From contig NZ_CP040871.1 in NCBI RefSeq assembly GCF_006337105.1, positions 806,001 to 870,000 on the forward strand: DNA of 64,000 bases, read 5' to 3'. The translations under genes were made by a program, and so were the position numbers. The notes beneath the pieces were generated by a model. The model saw only the letters and a list, made by a program, of their open reading frames with translations, was not told the origin of the DNA and ran no database searches. Every line of letters begins with the position of its first letter. Positions within the stretch are counted from its first letter, which is position 1. Below, piece after piece: positions 2,066 to 18,451 of the stretch. The DNA is from Thermomonas aquatica (GTDB lineage Bacteria > Pseudomonadota > Gammaproteobacteria > Xanthomonadales > Xanthomonadaceae).

Positions 2066-2248
2066 CGCAGAAGAAATAGATTTCAGCAAAGAGCTTTTCT
2101 TCCGCCAAACCCAAAGAGCTTCCCTGATCCAGTCTCGCCCGCGCTCCGGCATATCGCGGACCTGATACGCCTCCGCGCGGTGACAGAGGTCTTGGCGTCA
2201 AGCCAAACCGTCTTTCCTGGTACCCGGCATCAAAAGCCGGCTTCAGCG
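2066..2248. other. ORF-less cassette, family A copy 1
   Basis: No credible gene. Contains a nested palindrome: CCGCGC (2139-2144) with GCGCGG (2175-2180), a symmetric TCC/TCC internal loop, and GGCATATC (2148-2155) with GATACGCC (2164-2171). The same architecture with different, compensating bases occurs at 15.15 and 18.34 kb. Starts CGCAGAAG and ends with GGCTTCAGCG like the other copies. Confidence 0.8.
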
Positions 2249-2358
2249 CGCTAACAATTCGCTCAAGCCGAGCCCGCTTCGCGGCCTCGGCGCGGTGTGG
2301 CAAGCTTGTACACCTCGCCGTGGCCGCAAAGCGGCCCGGCTTAGCTCAGGCGTTAGGT
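2249..2358 (+). repeat. attC 5 (long type)
   Basis: 110 bp. R'' CGCTAAC, R' GTTAGGT. Confidence 0.95.
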
Positions 2359-2432
2359 GCGCAAGAAGTGGCTTCATCGTCGCCACACATTGCTAGCGCA
2401 CGGTTCCTCAACGCTCGCCCAGGGGACTCGCC

Positions 2433-2648
2433 ATGTTCAAGGAATTCGGACTGCTGTATCGCCCAACGTCAATCGCTGGCTGGGTAATCACAACCCTCGC
2501 CTTCGCTTTCTGTGTGCACATCTTTCTGTTCATCGACAGTCGATCGCACTCGAATACAGACACGTTGTACGGCATCTTTCCATACGTGGTTCCCACCCTG
2601 CTTGGGCTCTACGTCCTTGCCATGCGTACCAGTCAGCCAAGTCGCTGA
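2433..2648 (+). CDS. Cassette-encoded small membrane protein (71 aa)
   Basis: Unknown function. Two predicted membrane spans, about residues 13-33 and 46-64, with a short loop between them and a basic C-terminus. The ATG is preceded by CAGGGGACTCGCC, which holds a plausible ribosome site. The stop TGA lies 8 bases before the attC, so unlike many neighbours this gene does not borrow its stop. Sole gene of its cassette, whose termini pair over GTTAGGTGCGC. Confidence 0.75.
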   Translation: MFKEFGLLYRPTSIAGWVITTLAFAFCVHIFLFIDSRSHSNTDTLYGIFPYVVPTLLGLYVLAMRTSQPSR

Positions 2649-2655
2649 GCGGCGC

Positions 2656-2764
2656 ACCTAACAATTCGTTCAAGCCGAGCCCGCTTCGCGGCCTCGGCAG
2701 AGCGTCGTAAGATTGTCACTCTGCCGTGGCCGCAAAGCGGGCCGGCTTAACTCAGGCGTTAGCC
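2656..2764 (+). repeat. attC 6 (long type)
   Basis: 109 bp. R'' ACCTAAC, R' GTTAGCC. Confidence 0.95.
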
Positions 2765-2767
2765 AGC

Positions 2768-3184
2768 ATGAAAATCGTCGTCGCGCTTCTAGTAATAGCT
2801 GCCATCGTGCTTGTCGCCCTCTCTTTCCAAAGTCGCGCGGCAAAACGTGATCTCATCTGGGACATTGGGCATCGGAAGCCGCTTGACCCGGAAAAAGAAT
2901 ACAAATTCACTTTCCGAATCACGTTCCAAAACAAGGAACAGGCTGATCAATGTGCCTCAACGGAGGTCACAGGCTTCTCTTCGAATGTTGAGGCCACCCC
3001 TAACGGTGAACGTTGGGCTGCAATCTGGACTGGAACAATGAAGGCTGAACCCACAATGTTCCGCAATGTCTTACAAGCCATCAGATCAGCTGGGCAATCC
3101 AGTGCTGCCAAAGATTCAGAACCTCTTATAACAGCTAGCGACCCAGGCTCAGGTGTTGGAATCCTAGTTGATGCTGCTGGCTAA
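2768..3184 (+). CDS. Cassette-encoded membrane-anchored protein (138 aa)
   Basis: Unknown function. One N-terminal hydrophobic segment at residues 2-20 works as an anchor or uncleaved signal. The rest, about 115 residues, is expected in the periplasm, with the run YKFTFRITFQNK suggesting a beta-sandwich. I chose the ATG at 2768, four bases after R', because the longer frame reads back through the attC. The transcript leader is very short, so it may be near leaderless. The stop is the attC TAA. Confidence 0.75.
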   Translation: MKIVVALLVIAAIVLVALSFQSRAAKRDLIWDIGHRKPLDPEKEYKFTFRITFQNKEQADQCASTEVTGFSSNVEATPNGERWAAIWTGTMKAEPTMFRNVLQAIRSAGQSSAAKDSEPLITASDPGSGVGILVDAAG

Positions 3185-3268
3185 CAATTCGTTCAAGCCG
3201 AGCCCGCTTCGCGGTCTCGGACGTAACCGGTTCGCATCGGGCGGGCCGGCTTAACTCAGGCGTTAGGG
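3179..3268 (+). repeat. attC 7
   Basis: 90 bp. R'' GGCTAAC, R' GTTAGGG. Confidence 0.95.
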
Positions 3269-3273
3269 CGCAA

Positions 3274-3660
3274 ATGTTAGAAATTCGCCATTGCGGAGAA
3301 TGCAACATCGAGCTCTCGGAGGATCCGTCAGCCGAACGGCTCCCTTGCCCGGAGTGTGGAGCGCTCAATAGAAAATTTCTTGAGGTTCTCCAGGACTCAC
3401 TAGTCGCCCACACTGGCTATCGTGTCAAACACAAACGCCCCGGCGTCAAACGGCCGCTAGCTGAAGAACGGGATCAGCTCAGCTACTTCGTTCGTGACAA
3501 CGAATGGCACCGGCGCTACATGCTCGTTGATCGCATTAATGATCTATACGTAGAAAAAATTACTCGAGTTCGTACAGGTGAAGTCGTCCGCCACGTGGAA
3601 GAGAAGTTGTCGGACCACCTCGGCCATGGTGACGACAAGAGGAATCGCGGCGCGCCCTAA
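3274..3660 (+). CDS. Cassette-encoded zinc-ribbon protein (128 aa)
   Basis: Residues 8-32 carry CGEC followed by CPEC, a typical four-cysteine zinc ribbon. The rest is charged, soluble and helical, with no membrane segment, and includes RRYMLVDRINDLYVEKITR. Function is unknown; zinc ribbons often bind nucleic acid or partner proteins. The ATG lies 5 bases after R', so the leader is very short. The stop is the attC TAA. Confidence 0.8.
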   Translation: MLEIRHCGECNIELSEDPSAERLPCPECGALNRKFLEVLQDSLVAHTGYRVKHKRPGVKRPLAEERDQLSYFVRDNEWHRRYMLVDRINDLYVEKITRVRTGEVVRHVEEKLSDHLGHGDDKRNRGAP

Positions 3661-3744
3661 CAATTCGTTCAAGCCGAGCCCGCTTCGCGGTCTCGTCGCG
3701 GTCTCACTCGCCGGACGCGGGCCGGCTTAACTCAGGCGTTAGGC
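3655..3744 (+). repeat. attC 8
   Basis: 90 bp. R'' CCCTAAC, R' GTTAGGC. The centre reads GGTCTCGTCGCGGTCTCACTCGCCGGACG, a variant shared with attC 38. Confidence 0.95.
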
Positions 3745-3981
3745 GGCGCTAGGCCAAAATCTTTTCAACGTGAAGATGGCCTTCTCATGCAACAGCGCAC
3801 TTCGCATGTCTCGTCGGCCACATACTCCGTGCAGCCTGAGAGCGGCTGCACTCCGTCTGCGGTCGCGTGTTCTGGCAAACAGCATTGCGGCGCACAGAAC
3901 CAGTTCTGTGCAGCTGGCCGAGATTCGATCGCAGTCTTGTGAAAAATTCACAGTGCCCAGCAAAAGCATCGCTGGTCAGCC
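3745..3981. other. ORF-less cassette, family C copy 1
   Basis: About 235 bp, closely related to the next cassette and to 10,585-10,822. Strong hairpin GCACAGAAC (3892-3900) with GTTCTGTGC (3903-3911), followed by a GTGAAAAATTCAC hairpin. A one-base indel between copies (GCATTGCGGCG versus GCATTGCAGGCG) breaks any shared frame, so I read it as non-coding. Confidence 0.85.
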
Positions 3982-4093
3982 GCCTAACAATTCGCTCAAG
4001 CCGACTCCGCTTCGTTCCGGCCACGCCGTGGCAGGAAGAGCTTGCCACGGCGTGGCCTCCACTACACTACGCGTCTTAGCTCAGGCGTTAGGC
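3982..4093 (+). repeat. attC 9 (family C type)
   Basis: 112 bp. R'' GCCTAAC, R' GTTAGGC. Distinct arm CCACGCCGTGG...CCACGGCGTGG and CACTACACTACGCG; this subtype only follows family C cassettes. Confidence 0.95.
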
Positions 4094-4331
4094 GGCGCCA
4101 GGCCAAGATCTTTTCAACGTGAAGACGGCCTTCTCATGCTGCAGCGCACATCGCAGTTCTCGTCGGCCACATACTCCGTGCAGCCTGAGAGCGGCTGCAC
4201 TCCGTCTGCGGTTGTGGCTTCTCGGGAACAGCATTGCAGGCGCACAGAACCAGTTCTGTGCAGCTGGCCGAGATTCGATCGCAGTCTTGTGAAAAATTCA
4301 CAGTGCCCAGCAAAAGCATCGCTGGTCAGCC
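4094..4331. other. ORF-less cassette, family C copy 2
   Basis: Tandem relative of the preceding cassette, near identical over the 3' 150 bases. Hairpin GCACAGAAC (4242-4250) with GTTCTGTGC (4253-4261). Confidence 0.85.
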
Positions 4332-4433
4332 GCCTAACAATTCGCTCAAGCCGACTCCGCTTCGTTCCGGCCACGCCGTGCTTGCCACGGCGTGACCTCC
4401 ACTACACTACGCGTCTTAGCTCAGGCGTTAGGG
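4332..4433 (+). repeat. attC 10 (family C type)
   Basis: 102 bp. R'' GCCTAAC, R' GTTAGGG. Lacks about 10 bases (GCAGGAAGAG) of the arm seen in attC 9. Confidence 0.95.
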
Positions 4434-4447
4434 CCCGCGACAACCGC

Positions 4448-4777
4448 ATGCAACTGATCTACTCCACGAGCGACCTAAATTTCGCCAATCGGCTAGCCCG
4501 TCAACTCAATGAGCAGGGCGTCGAAACTCACGTATCGAACTCCCACTCCTCAAGATTGGCGGGATTTGGCGCTAGCTTCACGCCTGGCTTTGTTGGCGTC
4601 TGGGTCATTCATGAGATTGATCTCCCTGTCGCACATGAAGTCCTGATCGCCAAGGGACTCATTCGCACACCCAATGACCAAAGCCCTGTGTCTGCTCCGA
4701 GTAAGCAGGGGCTCGCGTTCCTCCTGGCTGCAATTGTAGTTGTCGTAATTGGGCTGCTTATACTCGGCGGGCCCTAA
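4448..4777 (+). CDS. DUF2007-like protein with C-terminal membrane anchor (109 aa)
   Basis: The N-terminal part (MQLIYSTSDLNFANRLARQL, then a position-scanning segment ending in a VWVIHEIDLPVAHEVL-like stretch) resembles the small ferredoxin-fold DUF2007 family of putative signal-transducing proteins, where such a strand-helix pattern is usual. Residues 88-106 form one hydrophobic span, so it is tail-anchored. I start at the ATG at 4448 because the longer frame crosses a whole cassette and its attC. The stop is the attC TAA. Confidence 0.75.
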   Translation: MQLIYSTSDLNFANRLARQLNEQGVETHVSNSHSSRLAGFGASFTPGFVGVWVIHEIDLPVAHEVLIAKGLIRTPNDQSPVSAPSKQGLAFLLAAIVVVVIGLLILGGP

Positions 4778-4877
4778 CAATTCGTTCAAGCCGAGACCGC
4801 TTCGCGGCTCGGCTGCATGGTGACGTGTACCACTCCGCCGTTCCGCGCAGCGGTCCGGCTTAACTCAGGCGTTAGGC
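4772..4877 (+). repeat. attC 11
   Basis: 106 bp. R'' CCCTAAC, R' GTTAGGC. Confidence 0.95.
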
Positions 4878-4896
4878 GGCTAATACAGGTGATCGC

Positions 4897-5229
4897 ATGA
4901 TGTTCATGATCGGCCAGGGGGAGCGCACAGTTCCTGTTGGCCCACCAGAGCCACAGCATTGCCCTCGCTGTGAGGAGGTCACTGACTTCCAGCCGCAGCT
5001 CAAGTACAAATTCGGCCAGTTCGACCTGCTTTTCGGCTTTGTGTACGACAAGCGGTATCAACTCACTTGTCCTGAATGCAATCACGGCTGGCATCTGGAC
5101 AAGCGATCCATGGAACAGAATATTGGCAAGCTGCCAATTCCCTTCCACATACGCTTCGGCTTTGTGATCCTGCTCGGCCTAGCTGCCGCGCTCGGGGCGG
5201 CATATATGGTCACGCATGCCGCCGCCTAA
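4897..5229 (+). CDS. Cassette-encoded zinc-ribbon membrane protein (110 aa)
   Basis: CPRC at about residues 22-25 and CPEC at about 58-61 form a split zinc ribbon, with aromatic residues (FGQFDLLFGFVYDKRYQLTC) between the knuckles. One membrane span follows at about 85-105. This zinc-ribbon plus anchor layout is known among small bacterial proteins of unknown function. The stop is the attC TAA, so the last residues come from the R'' site. Confidence 0.8.
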   Translation: MMFMIGQGERTVPVGPPEPQHCPRCEEVTDFQPQLKYKFGQFDLLFGFVYDKRYQLTCPECNHGWHLDKRSMEQNIGKLPIPFHIRFGFVILLGLAAALGAAYMVTHAAA

Positions 5230-5313
5230 CAATTCGTTCAAGCCGAGCCCGCTTCGCGGTCTCGGACCGACCGGAACCGCATCGGGCGGGCCGGCTTAAC
5301 TCAGGCGTTAGGC
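5224..5313 (+). repeat. attC 12
   Basis: 90 bp. R'' GCCTAAC, R' GTTAGGC. Confidence 0.95.
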
Positions 5314-5328
5314 GGCACTTGGAGTCAA

Positions 5329-5706
5329 ATGCACCCTCTCGTACTAGCACTCTCATTTCTCTGCGTGGCCAGCTTCAAGTTTTTCGCGGCCATGTCAGAG
5401 AACGCATTTGTCCCAGCCGCACTCATGTTCGCTGCCATGTTTGGAGCGCCTCAATTGATCTGGCTATGGTTCTTGCGCAAGGGACCGATAAATGACGACC
5501 AGACCAGAGTAGCTCACTTTACGCTAGCAGCGTTTGTGTTCTCTTCAATCCTCTTCGGCTACTTCCCTGGCGTGTCGCGTCCGACATGGGGCGGAGAAGG
5601 TCATTTTGAAGTTCCGGCCGCCTTTCTCCTTGAGGGGCTTATTACAATTATTGGTGTCGTCGTATTTGTTGCTCGTGGAAAAGGGGCAAATACGGGTGCC
5701 GCCTAA
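5329..5706 (+). CDS. Cassette-encoded multi-span membrane protein (125 aa)
   Basis: Four hydrophobic segments at about residues 3-20, 26-48, 63-82 and 95-115 predict a small polytopic inner-membrane protein with little outside the bilayer. No family recognised. ATG with GGAGTC upstream. The stop is the attC TAA. The cassette termini pair over GTTAGGCGGCAC. Confidence 0.75.
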   Translation: MHPLVLALSFLCVASFKFFAAMSENAFVPAALMFAAMFGAPQLIWLWFLRKGPINDDQTRVAHFTLAAFVFSSILFGYFPGVSRPTWGGEGHFEVPAAFLLEGLITIIGVVVFVARGKGANTGAA

Positions 5707-5809
5707 CAATTCGTTCAAGCCGAGCCCGCTTCGCGGCCTCGGCAGAGCGTCGTAGGATTGTCACTCTGCCGTGGCCGCAAAGCGGCCCGGCTTAACTCAG
5801 GCGTTAGCC
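5701..5809 (+). repeat. attC 13 (long type)
   Basis: 109 bp. R'' GCCTAAC, R' GTTAGCC. Confidence 0.95.
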
Positions 5810-5833
5810 GCTACTCCGGGCCCTCTTGCACGG

Positions 5834-5862
5834 TTGAATGCATTGTAATACATTGCATTCAA
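5834..5862. promoter_or_regulatory. Near-perfect palindromic operator of the RHH/ParE module
   Basis: TTGAATGCA (5834-5842) and TGCATTCAA (5854-5862) are perfect inverted repeats; the spacer holds TGTAATACA, itself nearly symmetric. It lies 20 bases upstream of the antitoxin ATG, where RHH antitoxins bind to repress their own operon. Confidence 0.75.
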
Positions 5863-5881
5863 ATCGCCTGGAGGACTCCCC

Positions 5882-6154
5882 ATGACAGTCACAACCGTAC
5901 GCCTCCAACCCGAGGTCGAAAGCGGCCTCGAGGCAATGGCTGACAAGCTTCATCGCAGCAAGAACTGGCTCGTAAATCAGGCCATTCGTGAGTTCGTGGC
6001 ACGTCAAGAACTTGAACTGTCGCGATGGAATGAAACATTGACTGCCATGAGTTCTGTTGCACAAGGCAAGGTCGTCTCAGGACAAGCCGTCCACGCATGG
6101 TTGGAATCCTGGGGCAACGCTAATGAACTGCCACCTCCCAAGGTTGGGCAGTGA
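5882..6154 (+). CDS. RHH antitoxin, CopG/ParD-like (90 aa)
   Basis: The N-terminal residues TTVRLQPEVESGLEAMAD and then a NWLVNQAIREFV helix match the ribbon-helix-helix fold: a beta strand and two helices that dimerise to bind the operator. The C-terminal tail, about residues 50-90, should wrap the toxin. GGAGG precedes the ATG. The toxin gene starts 4 bases before this stop, so the two are translationally coupled. The pair fills one integron cassette, consistent with a stabilising role in the array. Confidence 0.9.
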   Translation: MTVTTVRLQPEVESGLEAMADKLHRSKNWLVNQAIREFVARQELELSRWNETLTAMSSVAQGKVVSGQAVHAWLESWGNANELPPPKVGQ

Positions 6155-6429
6155 AGCTCTCCTACTCCCAAGAAGCCGTAAACGACCTCATTCGTTTACG
6201 CGAGTTCATTGCCACTCATGACCCTGCTGCAGCGGCCCGCATTGCCGCCGATTTGATCTCGCGCATCGATCACTTGTGCAAGTTCCCTGAGATCGGAAGA
6301 AACGTTGCTGAGGCACCGCAGCCGGATAGAGTTCGTGACCTCATCATCGGCAAGTATGTTGTTCGTTACTCCGTCCATGATCATGCGCTAGTGATCCTGC
6401 GCATCTGGCATCACTTTGAAAATCGCTAA
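6151..6429 (+). CDS. RelE/ParE-family toxin (92 aa)
   Basis: Matches the RelE/ParE fold: KLSYSQEAVNDLIRLREF at the N-terminus, then a central FPEIGRN turn and the closing strands YVVRYSVHDHALVILRIWHH. ParE members poison DNA gyrase, while RelE members cut mRNA on ribosomes; the helix-rich N-terminus and the GR...RIWHH ending favour ParE. It starts with GTG overlapping the antitoxin stop (GTGA). Length is normal for the family. Confidence 0.9.
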   Translation: MKLSYSQEAVNDLIRLREFIATHDPAAAARIAADLISRIDHLCKFPEIGRNVAEAPQPDRVRDLIIGKYVVRYSVHDHALVILRIWHHFENR

Positions 6430-6434
6430 GTAGC

Positions 6435-6524
6435 AGCTAACAATTCGTTCAAGCCGAGCCCGCTTCGCGGTCTCGGACGTAACCGGGCCGCATCGGGCGG
6501 GCCGGCTTAACTCAGGCGTTAGGC
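6435..6524 (+). repeat. attC 14
   Basis: 90 bp. R'' AGCTAAC, R' GTTAGGC. Confidence 0.95.
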
Positions 6525-6548
6525 GCAGACACACAAAAGGGGGAAGCC

Positions 6549-7076
6549 ATTGAAAAGCTAAGCACTAGCGAATGGATTGCCGTAATTGGCGGAATAATTG
6601 CGCTGCTCGCGTTCTTTACAACGGTGTGGCAGGCACATCTAACACGCACACACAATCACCTATCCTCGCGCCCTGTTCTCGATATCGAGATTCATTGCCA
6701 ACCAGATAAAACGATCGGATTTCTTGTAGCCAACTGCGGACCAGGCCCTGCATTCGTCGAAAGCGCAGTAGCCACTTTCCGAAAAGTAACTTACTCGCTT
6801 TGTGTTGAGGAAGAGTTCGCAAAACTTAATGTTGCTCTTGGCAAGGCGGGACTGAAGGCAAAACAAATCAACATGGCAATTCCATCAGCCAACTCAGTTA
6901 TTCCGTCAGGGATGAAATATCCGCTATTTGTAATCAGAGACTCTGAAAACAGAGATCAAATACGCGGGCGGTTCGACTCACTATCAAAAGAGATCAGCCT
7001 TACCATCGCGTACAAGTCGCTGTACGAGCACACATATAAGACAGTGCACGACGTGCCTGTGGCAACCTGCGCCTAA
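6549..7076 (+). CDS. Cassette membrane-anchored protein, probable ATT start (175 aa)
   Basis: The frame from the first usual start (GTG 6624) lacks the natural beginning. Extending it upstream gives EKLSTSEWIAVIGGIIALL, a classic N-terminal membrane span, starting at ATT 6549 directly after the ribosome site AAAGGGGGAAG. No ATG, GTG or TTG exists in this frame between R' and 6549. After the span comes a soluble domain of about 140 residues (RPVLDIEIHC, then FLVANCGPGPAFVE), of a kind often seen in anchored bacterial proteins of unknown function. The stop is the attC TAA. Confidence 0.65.
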   Translation: MEKLSTSEWIAVIGGIIALLAFFTTVWQAHLTRTHNHLSSRPVLDIEIHCQPDKTIGFLVANCGPGPAFVESAVATFRKVTYSLCVEEEFAKLNVALGKAGLKAKQINMAIPSANSVIPSGMKYPLFVIRDSENRDQIRGRFDSLSKEISLTIAYKSLYEHTYKTVHDVPVATCA

Positions 7077-7179
7077 CAATTCGTTCAAGCCGAGCCCGCT
7101 TCGCGGCCTCGGCGCCGGCTTGTGTGATTGAACCATCGCCAAGGCCGCGCAGCGGCCCGGCTTAACTCAGGCGTTAGGT
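7071..7179 (+). repeat. attC 15 (long type)
   Basis: 109 bp. R'' GCCTAAC, R' GTTAGGT. Confidence 0.95.
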
Positions 7180-7192
7180 TGCAGACAAACAG

Positions 7193-7615
7193 ATGCGCAT
7201 TCCCACCTTGATTCTGACGCTTCTCGTTGCAGCTTCTGCCGCCGCTGCAGAACGTGACTTTTCTGGTCAATGGACTATTGATATCCGATCTCCAGAGGCA
7301 GTCAAACAAAACAAAGATTGCGGCTTTGCTTCATTTGACTTGAAGCAGGTCGGAGACAGAATTACCGGCACGCATACATTTGCGACAAGTGGTTGCGGCC
7401 GTATCAACGACAGCGGGCCAGTCACAGGAATCCTCGTCAGCCCAAAGAAAGCCGTACTTATCGTAACTAGCGCAAGAAACGGCGACATCGCTTATGGCAT
7501 TGCAATTCTTTTGCCTGACCATGATCTCGACTGGAAAACGATTGAATATGTGCGTGAATCAGGCGGAGACTCGCCATTGATTCTTGGGAAAGGGCGCTTG
7601 CATCCCGGCAAATAA
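7193..7615 (+). CDS. Cassette-encoded secreted protein (140 aa)
   Basis: A clear Sec signal peptide (MRIPTLILTLLVAASAAAA, cleavage near residue 19-20) precedes a beta-rich domain with FSGQWTIDI and later VGDRITGTHTFATSG. This strand pattern resembles small lipocalin-like or extracytoplasmic beta-barrel domains that open with a G-x-W motif. Two cysteines (about 43 and 67) could form a disulfide in the periplasm. No enzyme motif. The stop lies 8 bases before the attC. Confidence 0.75.
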   Translation: MRIPTLILTLLVAASAAAAERDFSGQWTIDIRSPEAVKQNKDCGFASFDLKQVGDRITGTHTFATSGCGRINDSGPVTGILVSPKKAVLIVTSARNGDIAYGIAILLPDHDLDWKTIEYVRESGGDSPLILGKGRLHPGK

Positions 7616-7622
7616 GGCAGCA

Positions 7623-7712
7623 ACCTAACAATTCGTTCAAGCCGAGCCCGCTTCGCGGTCTCGGGCCAGCCGAGTCGCCTTCGGGCGGGCCGGCTTAACT
7701 CAGGCGTTAGGC
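7623..7712 (+). repeat. attC 16
   Basis: 90 bp. R'' ACCTAAC, R' GTTAGGC. Confidence 0.95.
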
Positions 7713-7717
7713 CTCAT

Positions 7718-7954
7718 ATGAAGAATCCAGAGTGGACGAGCAAGGGCAAATCGATTTCCCAACTCATTGAGGAGCTACGCACCTTTGAGAACCAAGATCT
7801 TGAAGTTCGCATATCGCTGGATAACGGTGAGACTTCATTCCCCATCTCCCTTGTAGCCAAGCGGAACAACAACTACGCAGTGCTGACGAACTGCCAAGAT
7901 GAGCCAACACCCGTACACCACAAGATCCTGCCATCAAATATGAGGGGCACTTGA
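7718..7954 (+). CDS. Cassette-encoded small soluble protein (78 aa)
   Basis: Unknown. Residues 10-45 read as a helix (ISQLIEELRTF) followed by a strand pair (LEVRISLDNGETSFPISLV), a compact alpha/beta fold without membrane segment or catalytic motif. The ATG lies 5 bases after R', so there is almost no leader. Confidence 0.7.
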   Translation: MKNPEWTSKGKSISQLIEELRTFENQDLEVRISLDNGETSFPISLVAKRNNNYAVLTNCQDEPTPVHHKILPSNMRGT

Positions 7955-7977
7955 GGCGCAGTTTGCAATCGCCTGAG

Positions 7978-8067
7978 GCCTAACAATTCGTTCAAGCCGA
8001 GCCCGCTTCGCGGTCTCGGACCGACCGGTTCTGCTTCGGGCGGGCCGGCTTAACTCAGGCGTTAGGC
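7978..8067 (+). repeat. attC 17
   Basis: 90 bp. R'' GCCTAAC, R' GTTAGGC. Confidence 0.95.
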
Positions 8068-8072
8068 ATCAC

Positions 8073-8483: not shown

Positions 8484-8484
8484 T

Positions 8485-10584: not shown

Positions 10585-10822
10585 GGCGCCAGACAAAAAG
10601 ATCTGGTAGTCGTGAGTAGACACATCACACGCCATCGTGGTTTGTGGTTCTCGTCGGCCACATACTCCGTGCAGCCTGAAAGCGGCTGCACTCCGTCTGC
10701 GGTCGAAGGTTCGGGTCAACAGCATTGCAGGCGCACAGAACCAGTTCTGTGCAGCTGGCCGGGATTCGATCGCAGTCTTGTGAAAAATTCACAGTGCCCA
10801 GCAAAAGCATCGCTGGTCAGCC
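10585..10822. other. ORF-less cassette, family C copy 3
   Basis: The 3' two-thirds, from about 10,652, is nearly identical to copies 1 and 2, while the 5' 65 bases are unrelated. Hairpin GCACAGAAC (10733-10741) with GTTCTGTGC (10744-10752). Confidence 0.85.
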
Positions 10823-12055: not shown

Positions 12056-12068
12056 CGCAGGAACAGTC

Positions 12069-12422: not shown

Positions 12423-12505
12423 CAATTCGTTCAAGCCGAGCCCGCTTCGCGGTCTCGGACCAGCCGAGCCGCATCGGGCGGGCCGGCTTAACTCAGGCGT
12501 TAGGC
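12417..12505 (+). repeat. attC 27
   Basis: 89 bp. R'' GCCTAAC, R' GTTAGGC. Confidence 0.95.
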
Positions 12506-12515
12506 CGCATCAGAC

Positions 12516-13055
12516 ATGCTAAAGCTGCTGAAGAACCTATTCACAAAGCCAATCGGCAGCACTGCTAGTCAATGCGTGCCAGCCGAACCGATTGAACATC
12601 CCATCCTCGGCTCACTTGTTCCAGACAAGAAATTTCCTGATTCCTTGACGGGCCGCATCAACTATGGAGGGAACTGCATCGAACTACAGGCAACACCGGA
12701 TGGACAACCAATAGGAATTGCAATTGATCTAGCAATTCGCGCCACAAAAGACATTCAAAAGCTAGATGCATTATGCAAAGGACTCATTGCGGATGATTCA
12801 TTAGATGGCTACAACAGCGACTGGAGATTCGGCCAAACCGCGCTCGAAGATGGATCATTTAGAAACTTTGAAAAACCACTCCTCACGCGAGAAGAATTTT
12901 TCGAGAAATTAATGCTCGAGAACATCGAAGCTTATGGCACCTTGATGCTTGTGCTCACATACAAAGATAACGACATGTTCTGGGGCCATAGTTTCCAGGT
13001 GACATTCTTTGACGGGCCAACCTTTGGAGACGCGCATGTGTCAATGGTCGGCTGA
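12516..13055 (+). CDS. Cassette protein of unknown function (179 aa), DUF2262/DUF6985-like
   Basis: After a Lys-rich start comes HPILGSLVPDKKFPDSLTGRI, then GGNCIELQATPDG and the two-helix region IEAYGTLMLVLTYKDNDMFWGHSF ending in strands. Proteins with a P-h-h-G-x-L opening and a closing FWGH...V strand belong to small immunity-like or DUF families (DUF2262, DUF6985). The exact family is not certain. Lower GC and A-rich codons compared with other cassettes suggest a different donor. Confidence 0.7.
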   Translation: MLKLLKNLFTKPIGSTASQCVPAEPIEHPILGSLVPDKKFPDSLTGRINYGGNCIELQATPDGQPIGIAIDLAIRATKDIQKLDALCKGLIADDSLDGYNSDWRFGQTALEDGSFRNFEKPLLTREEFFEKLMLENIEAYGTLMLVLTYKDNDMFWGHSFQVTFFDGPTFGDAHVSMVG

Positions 13056-13091
13056 AATACGCTCCTGCACAGGGTGTGCAATCCGGCAGCG

Positions 13092-13181
13092 GCCTAACAA
13101 TTCGTTCAAGCCGAGCCCGCTTCGCGGTCTCGGACCGACCGGAACCGCATCGGGCGGGCCGGCTTAACTCAGGCGTTAGGC
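13092..13181 (+). repeat. attC 28
   Basis: 90 bp. R'' GCCTAAC, R' GTTAGGC. Confidence 0.95.
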
Positions 13182-13185
13182 CTCA

Positions 13186-13416
13186 ATGGATAGAGTACGA
13201 GCAACGCTGATAGCCACCGCAGATGAGCCAGAGAATCGACTGGCGGCTTTTCAGTGGATCAATAGACACAAAGAGGCACTGAGCTTCGTTTCTGAGAACC
13301 TTGGCTGTGGCTGCTGTGTCGACATCTGGAACATTGAAGGTGACAGCCAAGTAATCGGTCAGGTACCGCAGAACTTGCTCGGATCTAGCGCATGGGCCTC
13401 CGGACTTGAGGCCTAA
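13186..13416 (+). CDS. Cassette-encoded small protein (76 aa)
   Basis: Unknown. RLAAFQWINRHKEALSFVSENLGCGCCVDIWNIEGD shows a helix followed by a CGCC cluster and a strand; the paired cysteines might bind metal or be redox-active. No membrane segment. The ATG is 4 bases past R', so the leader is minimal. The stop is the attC TAA. Confidence 0.7.
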   Translation: MDRVRATLIATADEPENRLAAFQWINRHKEALSFVSENLGCGCCVDIWNIEGDSQVIGQVPQNLLGSSAWASGLEA

Positions 13417-13500
13417 CAATTCGTTCAAGCCGAGCCCGCTTCGCGGTCTCGGACCGACCGGAGCCGCATCGGGCGGGCCGGCTTAACTCAGGCGTTAGGC
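13411..13500 (+). repeat. attC 29
   Basis: 90 bp. R'' GCCTAAC, R' GTTAGGC. Confidence 0.95.
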
Positions 13501-13506
13501 CGCTTG

Positions 13507-13521
13507 TTGCATAGTGCGCAA
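13507..13521. promoter_or_regulatory. Putative HigA operator
   Basis: TTGCATAGTGCGCAA is a short imperfect palindrome (outer TTGC/GCAA) 17 bases before the higB ATG, overlapping the region where a -35/-10 pair would lie. HigA proteins repress from such sites. Confidence 0.55.
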
Positions 13522-13538
13522 CATGATACATTTCCTGC

Positions 13539-13817
13539 ATGATCAAGACGTTTCGGCATAAAGGCTTGCGGCGCCTGTACGAGACGGGCAGCACATCAGG
13601 CGTACAGGCCAGCCACGCCAAGCGATTGAGACTGCAATTGACCGCTCTGGATACTGCCCAATCCATTGAAGACATGGACATCCCCGGGTTTCGCCTACAT
13701 CCCTTGAAAGGCGAAATGCGAGGTCGCTGGTCAATTACCGTCAACGGCAATTGGCGCATCACGTTCGAGTTCCAAGATGGGAACGCTTACGTGTTGGACT
13801 ATGAGGACTACCACTAA
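13539..13817 (+). CDS. higB: HigB toxin, ribosome-dependent mRNA interferase (92 aa)
   Basis: IKTFRHKGLRRLYETGSTSG and the closing GRWSITVNGNWRITFEF plus DVLDYEDYH-like end are diagnostic of HigB of the RelE superfamily, which cuts mRNA on the ribosome. The toxin precedes its antitoxin, the usual order in hig loci. Stop and HigA start overlap by one base (TAATG). Confidence 0.95.
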   Translation: MIKTFRHKGLRRLYETGSTSGVQASHAKRLRLQLTALDTAQSIEDMDIPGFRLHPLKGEMRGRWSITVNGNWRITFEFQDGNAYVLDYEDYH

Positions 13818-14110
13818 TGGCTATGCACAACCCTCCTCACCCTGGTGAGTTCATCGCTGGCATCTACCTTGAACCCAATGGGATCAGCGGTCGCGTACTG
13901 GCGGAAAAGCTCGGCGTTGCGGCCTCTACGCTCAGCCGTGTTCTGAACGGAACCGGTCGTATTTCGCCTGAGATGGCACTGCGTCTTGCCAAGGCGATCG
14001 GTCGCTCTCCCGAGAGCTGGCTCGCCATGCAGGATGCGCATGATCTTTGGCTTGCGCGCCAGTCCGTTGACCTGCAAGGCGTAGGTAAGCTCAAGCTCGC
14101 GGCGGCCTAA
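13817..14110 (+). CDS. higA: HigA antitoxin, XRE-type DNA-binding protein (97 aa)
   Basis: HPGEFIAGIYLEPNGISGRV opens the HigA family; the helix-turn-helix is AEKLGVAASTLSRVLNGTGRISPEMALRLAKA. It binds and inhibits HigB and represses the operon. Standard length. The stop is the attC TAA; the last residues (LAAA) come from cassette-end sequence. Confidence 0.95.
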   Translation: MAMHNPPHPGEFIAGIYLEPNGISGRVLAEKLGVAASTLSRVLNGTGRISPEMALRLAKAIGRSPESWLAMQDAHDLWLARQSVDLQGVGKLKLAAA

Positions 14111-14193
14111 CAATTCGTTCAAGCCGAGCCCGCTTCGCGGTCTCGGACCAGCCGAATCGCATCGGGCGGGCCGGCTTAACTCAGGCGTTAGGC
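14105..14193 (+). repeat. attC 30
   Basis: 89 bp. R'' GCCTAAC, R' GTTAGGC. Confidence 0.95.
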
Positions 14194-14198
14194 CACTC

Positions 14199-14528
14199 AT
14201 GGAAAATTCTGGCTCGCCAATCGGTCCATCAGACGCATTCGACATTGTCGGCATCCGCAATGACGGCGGCATAGATGCTGTGATTGTGTGCAGTGGACCG
14301 CTCGACAACTCGAGTACAACTCTCCGTGACCTTGCACTCAAGGTGCGGAACTACCTGCGTGAAATCGCTAGTGAAGACTTCATTTCCCAGTGTGGCCCTG
14401 GCCATGTCTGCATCTATGTGAGCTGCAGCCACACCGTTTCCACAGAGGCGGATCAACTCATTGCTGACTTGGCCCTTGAAGCGGCTCAGCAGCGTGTGCT
14501 CTTGCATTTAGGCGAGCCCGTGGCCTAA
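14199..14528 (+). CDS. DUF6572-like protein (109 aa)
   Basis: AFDIVGIRNDGGIDAVIVCSGPLDNS followed by a helix LRDLALKVRNYLREI looks like DUF6572, a small family where a strand pair with D...L is followed by a helix and a second strand (VCIYVSCSH here). Function unknown; soluble. The ATG is 5 bases past R'. The stop is the attC TAA. Confidence 0.75.
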   Translation: MENSGSPIGPSDAFDIVGIRNDGGIDAVIVCSGPLDNSSTTLRDLALKVRNYLREIASEDFISQCGPGHVCIYVSCSHTVSTEADQLIADLALEAAQQRVLLHLGEPVA

Positions 14529-14611
14529 CAATTCGTTCAAGCCGAGCCCGCTTCGCGGTCTCGGACCAGCCGAGTCGCATCGGGCGGGCCGGCTTAACTC
14601 AGACGTTAGAC
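14523..14611 (+). repeat. attC 31
   Basis: 89 bp. R'' GCCTAAC, R' GTTAGAC; CTCAGACGTTAG variant near R'. Confidence 0.95.
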
Positions 14612-14629
14612 ATTGCCAAAAGGGTTCTC

Positions 14630-14974
14630 GTGAAAGTGATCAACCTACTCGGCATCATTGTCGCCGGCGGTGCGGCGCTAGTCGCTTACGACATCTACAG
14701 TTCAAAATCCGCGGAAACGAGCTCGCCGCCGCCACAGGCTGCTCCACGGCGGGTTGTCGTGACCCCCACAGTGGATGACCGCTCTTGGATTAAGCCAAAA
14801 GACAACCAGGCGGTCACTTCATCGGCACCACAAACAGCATGTGACGGTCGTACCACCTGCCCTCAAATGAGATCCTGTGAGGAAGCGAAGTACTTCATCC
14901 AACACTGCCCAAACACCTCAATGGACGGCGATCGTGACGGCATACCCTGTGAAGAACAGTGGTGCGGCCACTAA
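14630..14974 (+). CDS. Membrane-anchored protein with excalibur-type calcium-binding domain (114 aa)
   Basis: Residues 3-22 form an N-terminal anchor, followed by a Pro/Ala-rich linker. The last 45 residues hold CDGRTTCPQMRSCEEAKYF and then DGDRDGIPCEEQWC, the cysteine-rich domain with a D-x-D-x-D-G loop seen in excalibur domains and in nuclease C-termini. It should sit in the periplasm and bind calcium. GTG start with AGGG nearby. Confidence 0.8.
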   Translation: MKVINLLGIIVAGGAALVAYDIYSSKSAETSSPPPQAAPRRVVVTPTVDDRSWIKPKDNQAVTSSAPQTACDGRTTCPQMRSCEEAKYFIQHCPNTSMDGDRDGIPCEEQWCGH

Positions 14975-14985
14975 GAGCAGGCAAT

Positions 14986-15075
14986 GTCTAACAATTCGTT
15001 CAAGCCGAGCCCGCTTCGCGGTCTCGGACCGACCGGAGCCGCATCGGGCGGGCCGGCTTAACTCAGGCGTTAGGC
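14986..15075 (+). repeat. attC 32
   Basis: 90 bp. R'' GTCTAAC, R' GTTAGGC. Confidence 0.95.
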
Positions 15076-15260
15076 CGCAGAAGTCGGTCTTCAGTGACAA
15101 GAGCATATGACTTTGCTCTTTCGGTTCGCGCCTACGCCTACACAGCTCGCCCAAGCTCCGGCATAGCTCAAACCCGCTATGCCTCCGCTTGGGTCGAAGT
15201 TCCTCGCGGTCATGACACCCTGCACTTCTGCGGTTTGCAGCAAGAGCATCAGCTTCAGCG
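15076..15260. other. ORF-less cassette, family A copy 2
   Basis: Best example of the family A palindrome: CCCAAGC (15150-15156) pairs with GCTTGGG (15187-15193), then TCC/TCC, then GGCATAGC (15160-15167) with GCTATGCC (15176-15183). Upstream AAGAGCA...TGCTCTT is a second hairpin, and a further AAGAGCA near the 3' end could compete for TGCTCTT. Confidence 0.85.
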
Positions 15261-15369
15261 GCCTAACAATTCGTTCAAGCCGACACCGCTTCGCGGCGTC
15301 GGCAAAGGCTCGTAAGATTGTGCCTCTGCCGCCGCCGCTCTCGGTGCCGGCTTAACTCAGGCGTTAGCT
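15261..15369 (+). repeat. attC 33 (long type)
   Basis: 109 bp. R'' GCCTAAC, R' GTTAGCT. Confidence 0.95.
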
Positions 15370-15393
15370 CTATTCCAACAATCAGGAGGCCCC

Positions 15394-15744
15394 ATGAAGA
15401 ACATCGCAATCATCAGTCTCGTGGTCGCATGTACAGGTTGTGTGTCGAGCTCCGAACTCCGCACCAAGACTCCAACGGTTGTTGTCACGAGCACGAAGGA
15501 AGCGCGCGCGGTTGCTGCATGCATCACTGAGGCATGGGAAAAAGGCGGCGTGTTCGGCATGACAATGCCAATTGAGAACAAATTCCTCGCAGACGGCTAC
15601 TCGGTTGTCTACAAGAACGGACAAACGGTTCAGCTAATGGCAGACGTTCACGAGCTTGAGTCTGGCTCGACAACCAAGTACTACAAAGTTTCCATGGTTG
15701 CCGGCGTATCCAAGTTCGAAAAGGCCGTTAAAGACTGCCAATAG
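15394..15744 (+). CDS. Cassette-encoded lipoprotein (116 aa)
   Basis: Signal peptide with lipobox VACTGC (Cys at residue 16), so the mature protein is lipid-anchored. The soluble part (VVVTSTKEARAVAACITEAW, then VVYKNGQTVQLMADV) is an alpha/beta fold typical of small periplasmic lipoproteins of unknown function. Strong ribosome site CAGGAGG precedes the ATG. The termini pair over GTTAGCTCTATT. Confidence 0.8.
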   Translation: MKNIAIISLVVACTGCVSSSELRTKTPTVVVTSTKEARAVAACITEAWEKGGVFGMTMPIENKFLADGYSVVYKNGQTVQLMADVHELESGSTTKYYKVSMVAGVSKFEKAVKDCQ

Positions 15745-15834
15745 AGCTAACAATTCGTTCAAGCCGAGCCCGCTTCGCGGTCTCGGACCGACCGGAACCG
15801 CATCGGGCGGGCCGGCTTAACTCAGACGTTAGCT
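15745..15834 (+). repeat. attC 34
   Basis: 90 bp. R'' AGCTAAC, R' GTTAGCT; CTCAGACGTTAG variant as in attC 31. Confidence 0.95.
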
Positions 15835-15844
15835 GTCAAAAGAG

Positions 15845-16204
15845 ATGATCGCCAAAAGCAGACCTCTCGGACTCTCAGTCTTGATCTGCCTACTCGGGCT
15901 ATCGACTATGAGTGCGCTCGTGGTTCTCCTCACAAGACGCGAATTTTTTGTTTCACAATTCCCGGGCGCTACTAATACCATCTGCACGGGCTATGTCTTG
16001 GCTGCGCTATTGATACTGTCCGGGCTGGCTGGCTTGTGGCAGCTCAAGCGCTGGTCCGTTTGGGTGCTCGCTGTCGCTACGATTGCAACGCTTGGCCTGG
16101 ATCAAATCGCAAATGCCCCTACCGCGCACAAGGCTGCAACGGTTGGATCATTGCTGCTGATCATTGCGCTCTCCAAACCTGTATGGCACAAGCTCCGTGT
16201 CTGA
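15845..16204 (+). CDS. Cassette-encoded membrane protein (119 aa)
   Basis: Four spans at about residues 8-28, 42-62, 68-86 and 95-111 in a compact polytopic fold with very short loops. No family recognised. The ATG lies 10 bases after R' with weak AGAG upstream. The stop TGA precedes the attC by a single base. Confidence 0.75.
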   Translation: MIAKSRPLGLSVLICLLGLSTMSALVVLLTRREFFVSQFPGATNTICTGYVLAALLILSGLAGLWQLKRWSVWVLAVATIATLGLDQIANAPTAHKAATVGSLLLIIALSKPVWHKLRV

Positions 16205-16205
16205 C

Positions 16206-16295
16206 AGCTAACAATTCGTTCAAGCCGAGCCCGCTTCGCGGTCTCGGACCGACCGGTTCCGCAATGGGCGGGCCGGCTTAACTCAGGCGTTAGCC
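16206..16295 (+). repeat. attC 35
   Basis: 90 bp. R'' AGCTAAC, R' GTTAGCC. GCAATGGGCGG variant. Confidence 0.95.
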
Positions 16296-16302
16296 CTCAA
16301 CA

Positions 16303-16653
16303 ATGGAACATCGCGCCAATCTACTTTCACGACTGGCTCTGTTTGAGGAGCCATCAGCCCCACTGATTGATGAACTCCGAGCAATGGGCTGGGATTGGCT
16401 TGGCGAGCCTCTTCTAGTGCTCACCGAGGAGCACTTCGTCAGAATCATGGACAGGTTTCTCGTCGGCCAACTCACAGCGGATCAAGTCGTTGAGTGGGCA
16501 GAGAATCTGGAACAACGGGAAGATGTAGGGTTTTCGCAAGACAAGCCGGAAGCGCTTGATGAATTGCTCTTTTGCCTAGCTAATCCAGATATCAATTACG
16601 CAATCACACCGCAGAATATTGAGCAGCTAAAGCGTGATATCGCAGAGGGCTAA
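16303..16653 (+). CDS. Cassette-encoded helical soluble protein (116 aa)
   Basis: Acidic, helix-rich and without membrane segments. LVLTEEHFVRIMDRFLVGQLTADQVVEWAENLEQREDVG resembles small immunity-like proteins where a loaded helix pair (..RFL.G.lsa..v..WAe.lE.R.Dig) recurs beside unrelated toxins. No toxin partner is visible here. The stop is the attC TAA. Confidence 0.7.
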   Translation: MEHRANLLSRLALFEEPSAPLIDELRAMGWDWLGEPLLVLTEEHFVRIMDRFLVGQLTADQVVEWAENLEQREDVGFSQDKPEALDELLFCLANPDINYAITPQNIEQLKRDIAEG

Positions 16654-16737
16654 CAATTCGTTCAAGCCGAGCCCGCTTCGCGGTCTCGGACCGACCGGAA
16701 CCGCATCGGGCGGGCCGGCTTAACTCAGGCGTTAGCT
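16648..16737 (+). repeat. attC 36
   Basis: 90 bp. R'' GGCTAAC, R' GTTAGCT. Confidence 0.95.
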
Positions 16738-16741
16738 GCGG

Positions 16742-16996
16742 TCAGTAGTGGTATCGCAGTTGTGCAATGAGAACTTCGTCACCTGCAGCCTTGTAGACGA
16801 TTCTGTGCTCGTCATTGATTCGCCTCGACCAATAGCCGGATAACGCATGCTTAAGCGGCTCCGGCTTTCCCGTCCCTGTATGCGGCGTTCTCGTGATCTC
16901 TTTGATCAGGTCGTTAATCCGCCGCACCAGCTTCTTATCGGTCTTCTGCCAATACAGGTAGTCTTCCCAAGCTTGCTCGGAAAAAATGAGCTTCAC
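16742..16996 (-). CDS. yoeB: YoeB toxin, ribosome-dependent mRNA interferase (84 aa)
   Basis: [21 protein letters not shown], then [22 protein letters not shown] and the C-terminal EHRIVYK...RYHY match YoeB/Txe closely. The basic and aromatic C-terminus with the final His-Tyr is the catalytic surface. It overlaps the antitoxin stop by 4 bases. The whole module is antisense to every other gene in the array, so it must use its own promoter. Confidence 0.95.
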
Positions 16997-17244
16997 TCGG
17001 CAAGACTCCTCGCCCGACCATTGCCCGATTCAAGCGAGGCAATGCTCTCAAGCAAACGCCTGGCATTCTTCGGGCTCCTGAGAAGGTAGGAAGTCTCCTC
17101 GAGCGCCTTGAAGTCTTCGAGCGACATCATCACCACCGCCTGCTCACCATTTCGGGTAATGATGATCGGCTCGTGGTCTTCACAGACACGATCCATAGTA
17201 TCGGCCAGATTGGCGCGAGCGGTGCTGTAGGTGATTGCGTCCAT
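16993..17244 (-). CDS. yefM: YefM antitoxin (83 aa)
   Basis: [32 protein letters not shown] is the Phd/YefM signature, and [22 protein letters not shown] is the usual centre before the toxin-binding tail. I use the ATG at 17244 because GGAG lies just upstream; the longer frame would swallow the operator. It neutralises YoeB and represses the operon. Confidence 0.93.
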
Positions 17245-17258
17245 CGGGAGACTCCTTA

Positions 17259-17276
17259 TGTACAGATATTTGTACA
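17259..17276 (-). promoter_or_regulatory. yefM operator, paired TGTACA boxes
   Basis: Two TGTACA hexamers at 17259-17264 and 17271-17276, centres 12 bp apart, just upstream of yefM. The E. coli yefM-yoeB operator uses the same hexamer with the same centre spacing, so the binding rule appears conserved on this cassette. Confidence 0.8.
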
Positions 17277-17304
17277 ACTGAAGAGTTGCCATGTCAAGCC
17301 CCGC

Positions 17305-17394
17305 AGCTAACAATTCGTTCAAGCCGAGCCCGCTTCGCGGTCTCGGACCGACCGGAACCGCATCGGGCGGGCCGGCTTAACTCAGGCGTTAGGC
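17305..17394 (+). repeat. attC 37
   Basis: 90 bp. R'' AGCTAAC, R' GTTAGGC. Confidence 0.95.
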
Positions 17395-17410
17395 GGCAAA
17401 GGAGAGTTCA

Positions 17411-17719
17411 ATGAACCCCGTTGTTCTTGGCCTCGTCGGCGGTACGGCATTCGGCATCATTGCCGTTCTGCTCATGCTGCCACTGTCATTCCCGGACAAG
17501 CGCACCGCTCTTATTGCAGCATTCTGCAGCCGCTTCTCAATCGGCCTCCTCATTCCGGTGTGCAATCTGCCATTGCCTCCTGTTGCCGCGGGCGTTGTGG
17601 TCGGGGCGCTTATCAGTCTTTCGGACGCAGTTGTGACCAAGGCTTACGTACCAATCATGGTGACCGGGGCATTAGGCGGTGGCATTCTGGGGTGGGTGGC
17701 AGGTCGGTTTGCCGCCTAA
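17411..17719 (+). CDS. Cassette-encoded membrane protein (102 aa)
   Basis: Gly/Ala-rich spans at about residues 5-25, 35-51, 56-73 and 80-98 predict four membrane helices with small-residue packing. Function unknown. AGGAGAG precedes the ATG at good spacing. The stop is the attC TAA. The cassette termini pair over 13 bases (GTTAGGCGGCAAA). Confidence 0.75.
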   Translation: MNPVVLGLVGGTAFGIIAVLLMLPLSFPDKRTALIAAFCSRFSIGLLIPVCNLPLPPVAAGVVVGALISLSDAVVTKAYVPIMVTGALGGGILGWVAGRFAA

Positions 17720-17803
17720 CAATTCGTTCAAGCCGAGCCCGCTTCGCGGGCTCGTCGCAGTCTCACTCGCCGGACGCGGGCCGGCTTAACTCAGGCGTTA
17801 GGG
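17714..17803 (+). repeat. attC 38
   Basis: 90 bp. R'' GCCTAAC, R' GTTAGGG. Centre like attC 8. Confidence 0.95.
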
Positions 17804-17813
17804 TGCACAAAGC

Positions 17814-18161
17814 ATGCTCGGATTCTTGAAGCGCCTCGCCATTGAATTCAGTAAAGCCATTCTTGCAATTGTTGTTCTGTTCGCAATTTTCGCTGGCTAC
17901 GGCTTTTTCGCAGAGAGATCTGCCAAAAAGAAGGCCGCTGCTATTTGCGCTTCCATTACGCCGGGCCAGAACCCCGCACCGCTGCGAGATCAAGCTCTCG
18001 CAGACGGCGCCAGTGACTTTCAGACTCGTTGGGGAAAGGCTGACGGTATGGATACATTGTTCATCACCTACGTCGGCCTTCCGCCGTTCTCCAGGCACAT
18101 GTGCTTTGTCCGAGCAAAAGATGGCAAGGTGGTCTCGGCCAAGTTGGCGTACCTTGACTGA
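17814..18161 (+). CDS. Cassette-encoded anchored periplasmic protein (115 aa)
   Basis: One span at about residues 13-33 (ILAIVVLFAIFAGYGFF) after a short basic N-terminus; the remainder is periplasmic. It has two cysteines (about 47 and 98) that could pair and a strand-rich end. A similar layout (anchor, then AICASITPGQ...) is common in proteins handling small domains of unknown function. No catalytic motif. Confidence 0.75.
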   Translation: MLGFLKRLAIEFSKAILAIVVLFAIFAGYGFFAERSAKKKAAAICASITPGQNPAPLRDQALADGASDFQTRWGKADGMDTLFITYVGLPPFSRHMCFVRAKDGKVVSAKLAYLD

Positions 18162-18167
18162 GGTGCG

Positions 18168-18256
18168 CCCTAACAATTCGTTCAAGCCGAGCCCGCTTCG
18201 CGGTCTCGGACCAGCCGAGTCGCATCGGGCGGGCCGGCTTAACTCAGGCGTTAGGC
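18168..18256 (+). repeat. attC 39
   Basis: 89 bp. R'' CCCTAAC, R' GTTAGGC. Confidence 0.95.
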
Positions 18257-18451
18257 CGCAGAAGACAGGCGCTCAGGTAAAGAGCTCTTAAAGAATTTTT
18301 TGCCGCCAGTGGCTTGCCCTGCTCTTGAACAGCCTCGCCCGCGGCTCCGGCATAACTGAAACCCGTTATGCCTCCGCCCGGTTGCGGGTTCACGTGATCA
18401 AAGGCAATCTGAAGTCCTGGTGTTCGGCAGCAAAGAGCCACGGCTTCAGCG
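18257..18451. other. ORF-less cassette, family A copy 3
   Basis: Palindrome: CCCGC+GGC (18338-18345) with GCC+GCGGG (18376-18378 and 18384-18388, bulge CGGTT), TCC/TCC, then GGCATAAC (18349-18356) with GTTATGCC (18365-18372). AAGAGCTCTT near the 5' end, GCTCTT in the middle and AAGAGC near the 3' end recur as in copy 2. Confidence 0.85.

Follow-up and report, generated by a model that had tools for sequence, protein, structure and literature searches.

A bottom-strand hairpin common to ORF-less cassette families of a Thermomonas chromosomal integron

What integron cassettes without an open reading frame (ORF) are for—whether they are selfish passengers, promoters or RNAs—has stood as an open question at least since 2006 (PMC1382264, in its available text). 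It is raised again by a 64,000-nucleotide stretch of Thermomonas aquatica (positions 806,001-870,000 of the 3.006-Mb genome, a single contig; hereafter the window), which opens within a large sedentary chromosomal integron. Here we describe a hairpin module in ORF-less cassettes of this integron, a selected bottom-strand fold common to several cassette families, and weigh what it might do. One hairpin on one strand across three ORF-less families provides a testable handle on the choice between selfishness and function.

A hairpin conserved across ORF-less cassettes

An initial annotation of the sequence had proposed that three gene-free cassettes share a two-step palindrome—an outer stem, a symmetric TCC/TCC loop and an inner stem—with compensating changes in its arms. 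All three cassettes (here family A) are present, bounded by attC sites and running from TTAG to CTAA, and each carries the palindrome, which we term the module and give as it reads on the minus strand:

2060..2254, family A ORF-less cassette 1 (c090), TTAG to CTAA body; its attC follows to about 2352
2139..2180, minus strand, module of cassette 1: CCGCGC-GGA-GGCGTATC-loop-GATATGCC-GGA-GCGCGG
15070..15266, family A ORF-less cassette 2 (c117), TTAG to CTAA, bounded by attC
15150..15193, minus strand, module of cassette 2: CCCAAGC-GGA-GGCATAGC-GGGTTTGA-GCTATGCC-GGA-GCTTGGG
18251..18457, family A ORF-less cassette 3 (c124), TTAG to CTAA, bounded by attC
18339..18381, minus strand, module of cassette 3: CCGGGC-GGA-GGCATAAC-GGGTTTCA-GTTATGCC-GGA-GCC-g-CGG

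The inner-element pattern occurs at exactly these three sites in the window and at the same three only in the whole genome, and was absent from 100 dinucleotide-preserving shuffles. In general, a 6-8-bp outer stem is followed by a symmetric, purine-rich 3x3 loop, an inner stem of 8 bp and an apical loop of 6-8 nt. The compensating changes proposed for the inner pairs are real, except that the right arm of the first copy reads GATACGCC instead of GNTATGCC, giving an A.C mismatch on the plus strand and a G.U pair on the minus strand—the first sign of a minus-strand fold. The outer stems are likewise paired, but the form suggested for the third copy (CCCGC-GGC/GCC-GCGGG) pairs better when drawn with six base pairs and a single bulged base (CCGGGC/GCC-G-CGG on the minus strand).

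Searches with a covariance model of the copies, the check that had been proposed, recovered homologues from five further genomes within the genus. The plus-strand model R1, built from the three copies and locus L067, was searched in 395 genomes of the family and matched 11: strong copies were found in T. aquatica itself (G000 in cross-genome counts; 3), G270 (11), G237, G150 and G329 (1 each), with weaker ones in G212 (4), all of one genus, and matches in G181, G200, G222, G263 and G288 (E-values 4e-4 to 9e-3) were regarded as chance. The strong copies, each an ORF-less cassette flanked by attC sites, measure about 189-207 bp (in G329 the parser extended the cassette into the next), and the weaker G212 copies, which form family F, are 232-253 bp. 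A minus-strand model, R2, searched in 25 genomes of the genus, matched the same six, with 10 matches in G212, and all 27 of its matches lie on the strand opposite the array. It matches cassette 1 at 2105-2204 on the minus strand (E 2e-29) and also four cassettes of another family, C, in the T. aquatica array (E 4e-5 to 0.015). A third search, R3, has false negatives, since it missed G150, which both R1 and R2 found.

One hairpin is shared by three ORF-less families whose sequences otherwise have little in common. Family A has GGCATARC-type inner stems; family C has GTGCAGCC, GTGCCGGC or GTGCCGCC and occurs in G000, G270, G212 and, outside the genus, G023; family F, with inner stem GGCGCGGC, occurs in G212. 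The 3x3 loop is GGA/GGA on the minus strand, and GGA/GTA in family F. Examples from family C in the window are:

3818..3862, minus strand, module of family C ORF-less cassette c094 (body about 3738-3987)
4167..4211, minus strand, module of family C ORF-less cassette c095 (body about 4087-4337)
10658..10702, minus strand, module of family C ORF-less cassette c108 (body about 10578-10828)

A scan of the T. aquatica array for a triplet, stem, loop, stem and the same triplet returned TCC/TCC (GGA/GGA on the minus strand) 38 times, cassette bodies and attC sites together, and the next triplets 18 and 4 times; across six arrays, GGA/GGA was found in 64 cassette bodies and the next triplet in 17. With chance items dropped, the collection holds 76 copies (A 17, C 43, F 16), which represent 48 distinct modules. 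Eighteen single items were dropped by rule before strands were counted (one copy, cassette longer than 260 bp, and inner stem start unlike the families) and two more after inspection; one dropped item remains in the T. aquatica total of 23 used in the tests of GGA enrichment and attI distance (corrected, 22) and in the family C folding set (24).

Three copies alone were insufficient proof of a selected RNA or single-stranded DNA (ssDNA) fold, as the initial annotation had read them, and in the larger alignment covariation is strong. Across 17 family A sequences and 14 base pairs, 92.9% of cells are paired, compared with 24-43% for slid partners; 6 of the 14 pairs show double changes, and the covariation score of 0.388 was reached by none of 500 shuffles, with two weaker measures not above shuffles (double-change pairs, 67/500; pair types, 395/500). 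With the module excluded, the family A cassettes gave a tree on which we counted 13 double changes that keep the pair, 6 single changes via G-U and 11 in which pairing was gained or lost, and for the inner stem alone 8, 3 and 1, respectively. When families A and C were aligned together with apical loops cut to six letters (23 sequences, 16 pairs), 11 pairs showed double changes and 89.1% of cells were paired. The fairer evidence here is the outer stem, as modules had been chosen partly by inner-stem pairing, and there 4 of 8 pairs show double changes with 79.3% paired. We conclude that the hairpin is conserved by compensating changes. With 14 end positions on each side left out, the module also diverges less than every same-size window outside it in four of five sets, namely A, F, and C of G000 and of G270.

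The cassettes offer little sign of a gene. The longest ORFs measure 21-55 amino acids (aa) in A (16 cassettes), 21-76 aa in C (35) and 41-77 aa in F (15), on mixed strands, and no reading frame conserved across cassettes, such as protein-coding sequence would show, was found in these same sets, in keeping with the initial annotation. When only the module stretch is considered, 15/16, 31/35 and 15/15 cassettes of A, C and F, respectively, keep the best frame open.

Strand of the fold and its integron setting

The module-picking rule admitted G.T and A.C equally, and wobbles in the 48 distinct modules, read on the minus strand, nonetheless number 39 G.T and 0 A.C (15 and 0 distinct classes; p = 3e-5); the count was 42:4 before removal of the two inspected items, which held all four A.C cells and three of the G.T. 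Stems of attC sites from the same arrays, our positive control, gave 101 G.T : 2 A.C under a strict flank filter and 553:147 unfiltered, with forced pairs, a ratio from which the 39:0 of the modules would differ (p = 2.6e-4). attC sites work as folded bottom-strand DNA, and integrases fold and recombine that strand. By the same count the modules are bottom-strand hairpins, as attC sites are, and the fold belongs to the minus strand, opposite normal cassette transcription. In all three families the minus strand likewise has the better mean RNA folding energy; it also has a slight purine skew, which was not used as evidence. The G.T bias in modules and attC stems points to a bottom-strand fold, but by itself cannot separate RNA from DNA, and we rejected G.T tolerance as proof of RNA because the attC control, composed of ssDNA sites, is equally biased under the strict filter.

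The internal loop provides a second link to attC. Among symmetric 3x3 bubbles of attC sites read on the bottom strand, 28/98 are GNA/GNA and 0/98 TNC/TNC (9/27 and 0/27 distinct cases), compared with 6/354 and 1/354 in cassette bodies without the module. Family C attCs of T. aquatica (for example, window about 3986-4087) supply 12 of the 15 GGA/GGA cases; four attCs of G270 (cassettes 1, 37, 52 and 85), with GGA/GGA or GGA/GTA, belong to cassettes that share no 11-mer and are built around three clearly distinct stems, one of which occurs twice. Sheared G.A pairs with stacked middle bases form in GNA/GNA loops, as in the (GGA)2 DNA motif, on which a literature search returned nothing useful. 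An AAC..GTT pair lies inside the inner stem of 6/48 distinct modules. Taken together, the observation of the initial annotation is confirmed and its interpretation supported, and three features go beyond it: the minus-strand specificity, a module common to at least two further ORF-less families, and the same bubble in some attC sites.

The integron itself is extensive. A whole-genome pattern search found 138 attC-like starts, all on one strand, and the array was parsed into 126 cassettes at genome positions 761,252-826,092 (127 by a second parser, used for cross-genome comparison). Its integrase, IntI (TIGR02249, E 1.1e-144; L003 14058-15161), is encoded on the strand opposite the array, and the array head holds two integron-integrase genes in tandem (L003 13010-13945 and 14058-15161; genome 759010-761161). 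Integrase and parsed array together place the start of the window inside a large sedentary chromosomal integron, and the ORF-less cassettes, as units between attC sites near an integron integrase, are gene cassettes of it. The CGCAGAAG starts and CTTCAGCG ends that the three cassettes were said to share do exist; they are mutually complementary, and the same holds for cassette ends generally: in the T. aquatica array, the two ends of one cassette are complementary over 9.4 bp on average, compared with 5.0 for different cassettes and 5.2 for neighbours, and the arrays of G212, G270 and G237 behave likewise. In family A, 14 end positions close with one T.T mismatch in 13/14 cassettes, GAAG/CTTC being swapped for GACG/CGTC. 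The complementarity reaches well past the R box; only after excision, when the cassette is a circle, would it extend the attC stem.

Cassettes with the module are often the most multiplied. The largest paralogue clusters comprise 14 family C, 7 family B (without module) and 4 further C cassettes in G000; 15 C, 14 without module (about 216 bp or longer) and then 5 and 4 A in G270; and 14 F and 6 C in G212. The largest cluster carries the module in each of the three genomes, where module cassettes make up 22/127, 26/186 and 23/82 of the arrays, respectively; high copy number accompanies the module, but not exclusively. Family B consists of paralogous ORF-poor cassettes of about 202 bp (window 1759-1961 and 10278-10480, with more copies upstream). 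Separately, the hexamer GCTCTT occurs 65 times on the minus and 8 times on the plus strand of module cassettes shorter than 270 bp, compared with 117 and 119 in other cassettes.

The distribution is narrow: these cassettes are a large ORF-less set in the chromosomal integrons of one Lysobacteraceae genus, with one module-bearing cassette in another genus. Within T. aquatica, all 15 matches listed lie in the array, and in a class-wide sample of 369 genomes, with the best 16 candidates per genome scored, this genome was the sole match; scans of more than 40 genomes scored the best 12-16 candidates in each, so that absences are weak. The exception is a G023 cassette (contig C197, 191-313; L145) with two tandem modules, one with a perfect 8-bp outer stem, that adjoins what by eye looks like attI. 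A fixed pattern run against genome contigs returned 58 stretches, one of them (L067) near an attC motif and the other 57 taken as chance; viral contigs returned six, none near an attC motif, and blastn matches were not found in plasmid (two queries) or phage (one query) collections.

Several further features of the window were recorded. A YefM-YoeB toxin-antitoxin cassette lies at 16742-17322 on the minus strand, opposite the usual cassette orientation, and a cassette of the same length (c013) sits upstream; a transposase with HTH_38 and rve domains, which we take to be IS30-like, occupies 18917-20008 at the distal array end. Rfam, at gathering and relaxed thresholds, identified a glycine riboswitch elsewhere in the window. 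The best sub-threshold Rfam matches were to microRNA models landing on attC hairpins, those to mir-1304 at 670-753, 2263-2344, 2668-2752, 5715-5795 and 9476-9559 being a false-positive trap.

What the hairpin may do

We think that the module may act as bottom-strand ssDNA, a reading drawn from its likeness to attC that we put at a probability of about 0.5. It is favoured by the strand of the fold, the attC-like bubble, the confinement to integrons, the multiplication, the lack of a visible promoter and the closure of the cassette ends. In such a scheme, the bottom strand would be exposed during replication or cassette excision and the hairpin would fold; the folded form might be recognised by a protein—the integrase, or a single-strand-binding or priming protein—and recognition could favour copying or movement of the module-bearing cassette. 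The GNA/GNA bubble would favour folding of the bottom strand over the top, as strand-selective integron recombination needs. If this is true, integron cassettes would have, beside attC, a second structured site in the module. A narrower version, which we regard as speculative and on balance improbable, holds that the module is a priming or protein-loading hairpin on the excised or displaced bottom strand and that the gene-less cassettes are self-favouring passengers; the hairpin itself would then aid copying or capture, so that gene-less cassettes would be the most multiplied in the array.

A number of observations weigh against an ssDNA role. The attC core sites GTTAG/CTAAC are found in 0/48 distinct modules, the commonest attC bubble is CCG/GAA (28 attCs compared with 15 with GGA/GGA), and breakers of the GNA rule exist (TGA in L094, AGA in G023). 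The family F module folds no better than shuffles (mean z-score -0.4 as RNA and 0.0 as DNA), on neither strand in the case of RNA. Conservation is not uniformly highest in the module: in family C of G212 (5 sequences) its divergence is 0.067 compared with 0.031 for the best outside window, and in A, F, and C of G270 and G212 the module is less conserved than the 14 positions at either end of the cassette. A position nearer attI was seen for module cassettes in G000 (p = 0.03, with one chance item included) but not in G270 or G212, and recent hyper-mobility is therefore unsupported. The self-contained YefM-YoeB cassette also lies on the minus strand, so the strand fits RNA equally. Finally, a subfamily of five copies in G270, with inner stem GTTGTAGC/GGTGCGAC (two G.U pairs and one G.G mismatch), folds as RNA on the minus strand (z -2.4; plus strand, z -0.4) and no better than shuffles as DNA (z -0.2); in these folding predictions, this variant is the best single hint for RNA.

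The strongest competitor to a bottom-strand DNA element, which we place somewhat below even odds, is accordingly that each ORF-less cassette produces a small non-coding RNA (sRNA) from its bottom strand, with the hairpin as a protein- or RNA-binding core, acting in trans at a dosage that in large arrays amounts to about 20 copies per genome; if true, this would be a new sRNA family with that copy number. Covariation that tolerates G.U, the better RNA folding energy of the minus strand in all three families, the GTTGTAGC variant and the orientation of the YefM-YoeB cassette all agree with it, and there is a precedent in sRNA-Xcc1, which is described as integron-borne, reverse-oriented and outside Pc control (PMC12444791, in its available text); antisense promoters are, moreover, possible in gene-less Vibrio cassettes (PMC11014356, in its available text). 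On the other side, no sigma-70-like promoter or terminator was found within the three cassettes by a scan that is weak for G+C-rich genomes, no conserved promoter block outside the module is apparent by eye, and attC stems, which work as ssDNA, are equally G.T-biased under the strict filter.

The same lack of a promoter-like site bears on the idea that the region serves neighbouring cassettes as a promoter and that the hairpin is incidental. Promoter activity of gene-less Vibrio cassettes is documented (available text of PMC11014356), but the conserved part here is the covarying hairpin, and we consider this explanation very unlikely. Hardly more plausible, and if anything slightly less so, is that the module is a repetitive extragenic palindromic (REP)-like or IS200/605-like palindrome, mobilised by a REP-associated tyrosine transposase (RAYT), that came into cassettes by chance with GGAG/GTAG as its tetranucleotide. 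REP tetranucleotides do resemble the GGAG/GTAG at the stem foot, and a Y1_Tnp gene occurs in all 6 module-bearing genomes of the genus. However, Y1_Tnp occurs in 18/25 genomes of the genus, of which 12 lack an R2 match; inspection of six Y1_Tnp loci, that of T. aquatica included, for perfect hairpins showed none like the module; and the matches listed from T. aquatica lie in the array only, not dispersed as REP copies would be. A sponge RNA for CsrA/RsmA, suggested by a pair of GGA motifs on the minus strand with a spacing of about 27 nt, can be set aside as the least credible of all, given that GGA is not above composition (A 3.88 vs 4.06 in shuffles, C 3.46 vs 4.57, F 2.73 vs 5.41), that family F retains one GGA of the pair, and that GGA sits in the internal, not the apical, loop.

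Relation to known systems

This element was not found described in titles or abstract openings of the papers listed by searches on integron non-coding cassettes and RNA structure. Among its close counterparts are the paralogous non-coding cassette families of Vibrio, which are ORF-less, highly paralogous and restricted to related hosts, and for which Boucher et al. (2006) proposed selfish elements or promoters and RNAs (PMC1382264); in the available text of that paper, a shared covarying structure is not mentioned for them and the term secondary structure is absent. The gene-less promoter cassettes of Vibrionaceae are also ORF-less and reside in chromosomal integrons, but their function is promoter activity, whereas here a hairpin is conserved (available text of PMC11014356).

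sRNA-Xcc1 (Rfam RF02221) resembles the module as a structured non-coding element of an integron cassette in reverse orientation (PMC12444791, in its available text). It is carried with symE and controlled by HrpG/HrpX; the longest ORFs of the three T. aquatica cassettes measure 21-52 aa. Identity of the two was ruled out: window positions 1-19,500 gave 20 matches up to E 10, none of them to the RF02221 covariance model, and sRNA-Xcc1 was found in 1/25 genomes of the genus and is absent from T. aquatica. REP elements share with the module a palindrome with a GGAG/GTAG foot, the module differing in not being dispersed. A further close comparison is attC: in both, the same strand folds, with the same G.T-only wobble bias under the strict filter, and a subset of attC sites has the GNA/GNA bubble. 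Unlike attC, the module lies inside the cassette body, without core sites, and is additional to the cassette's own attC.

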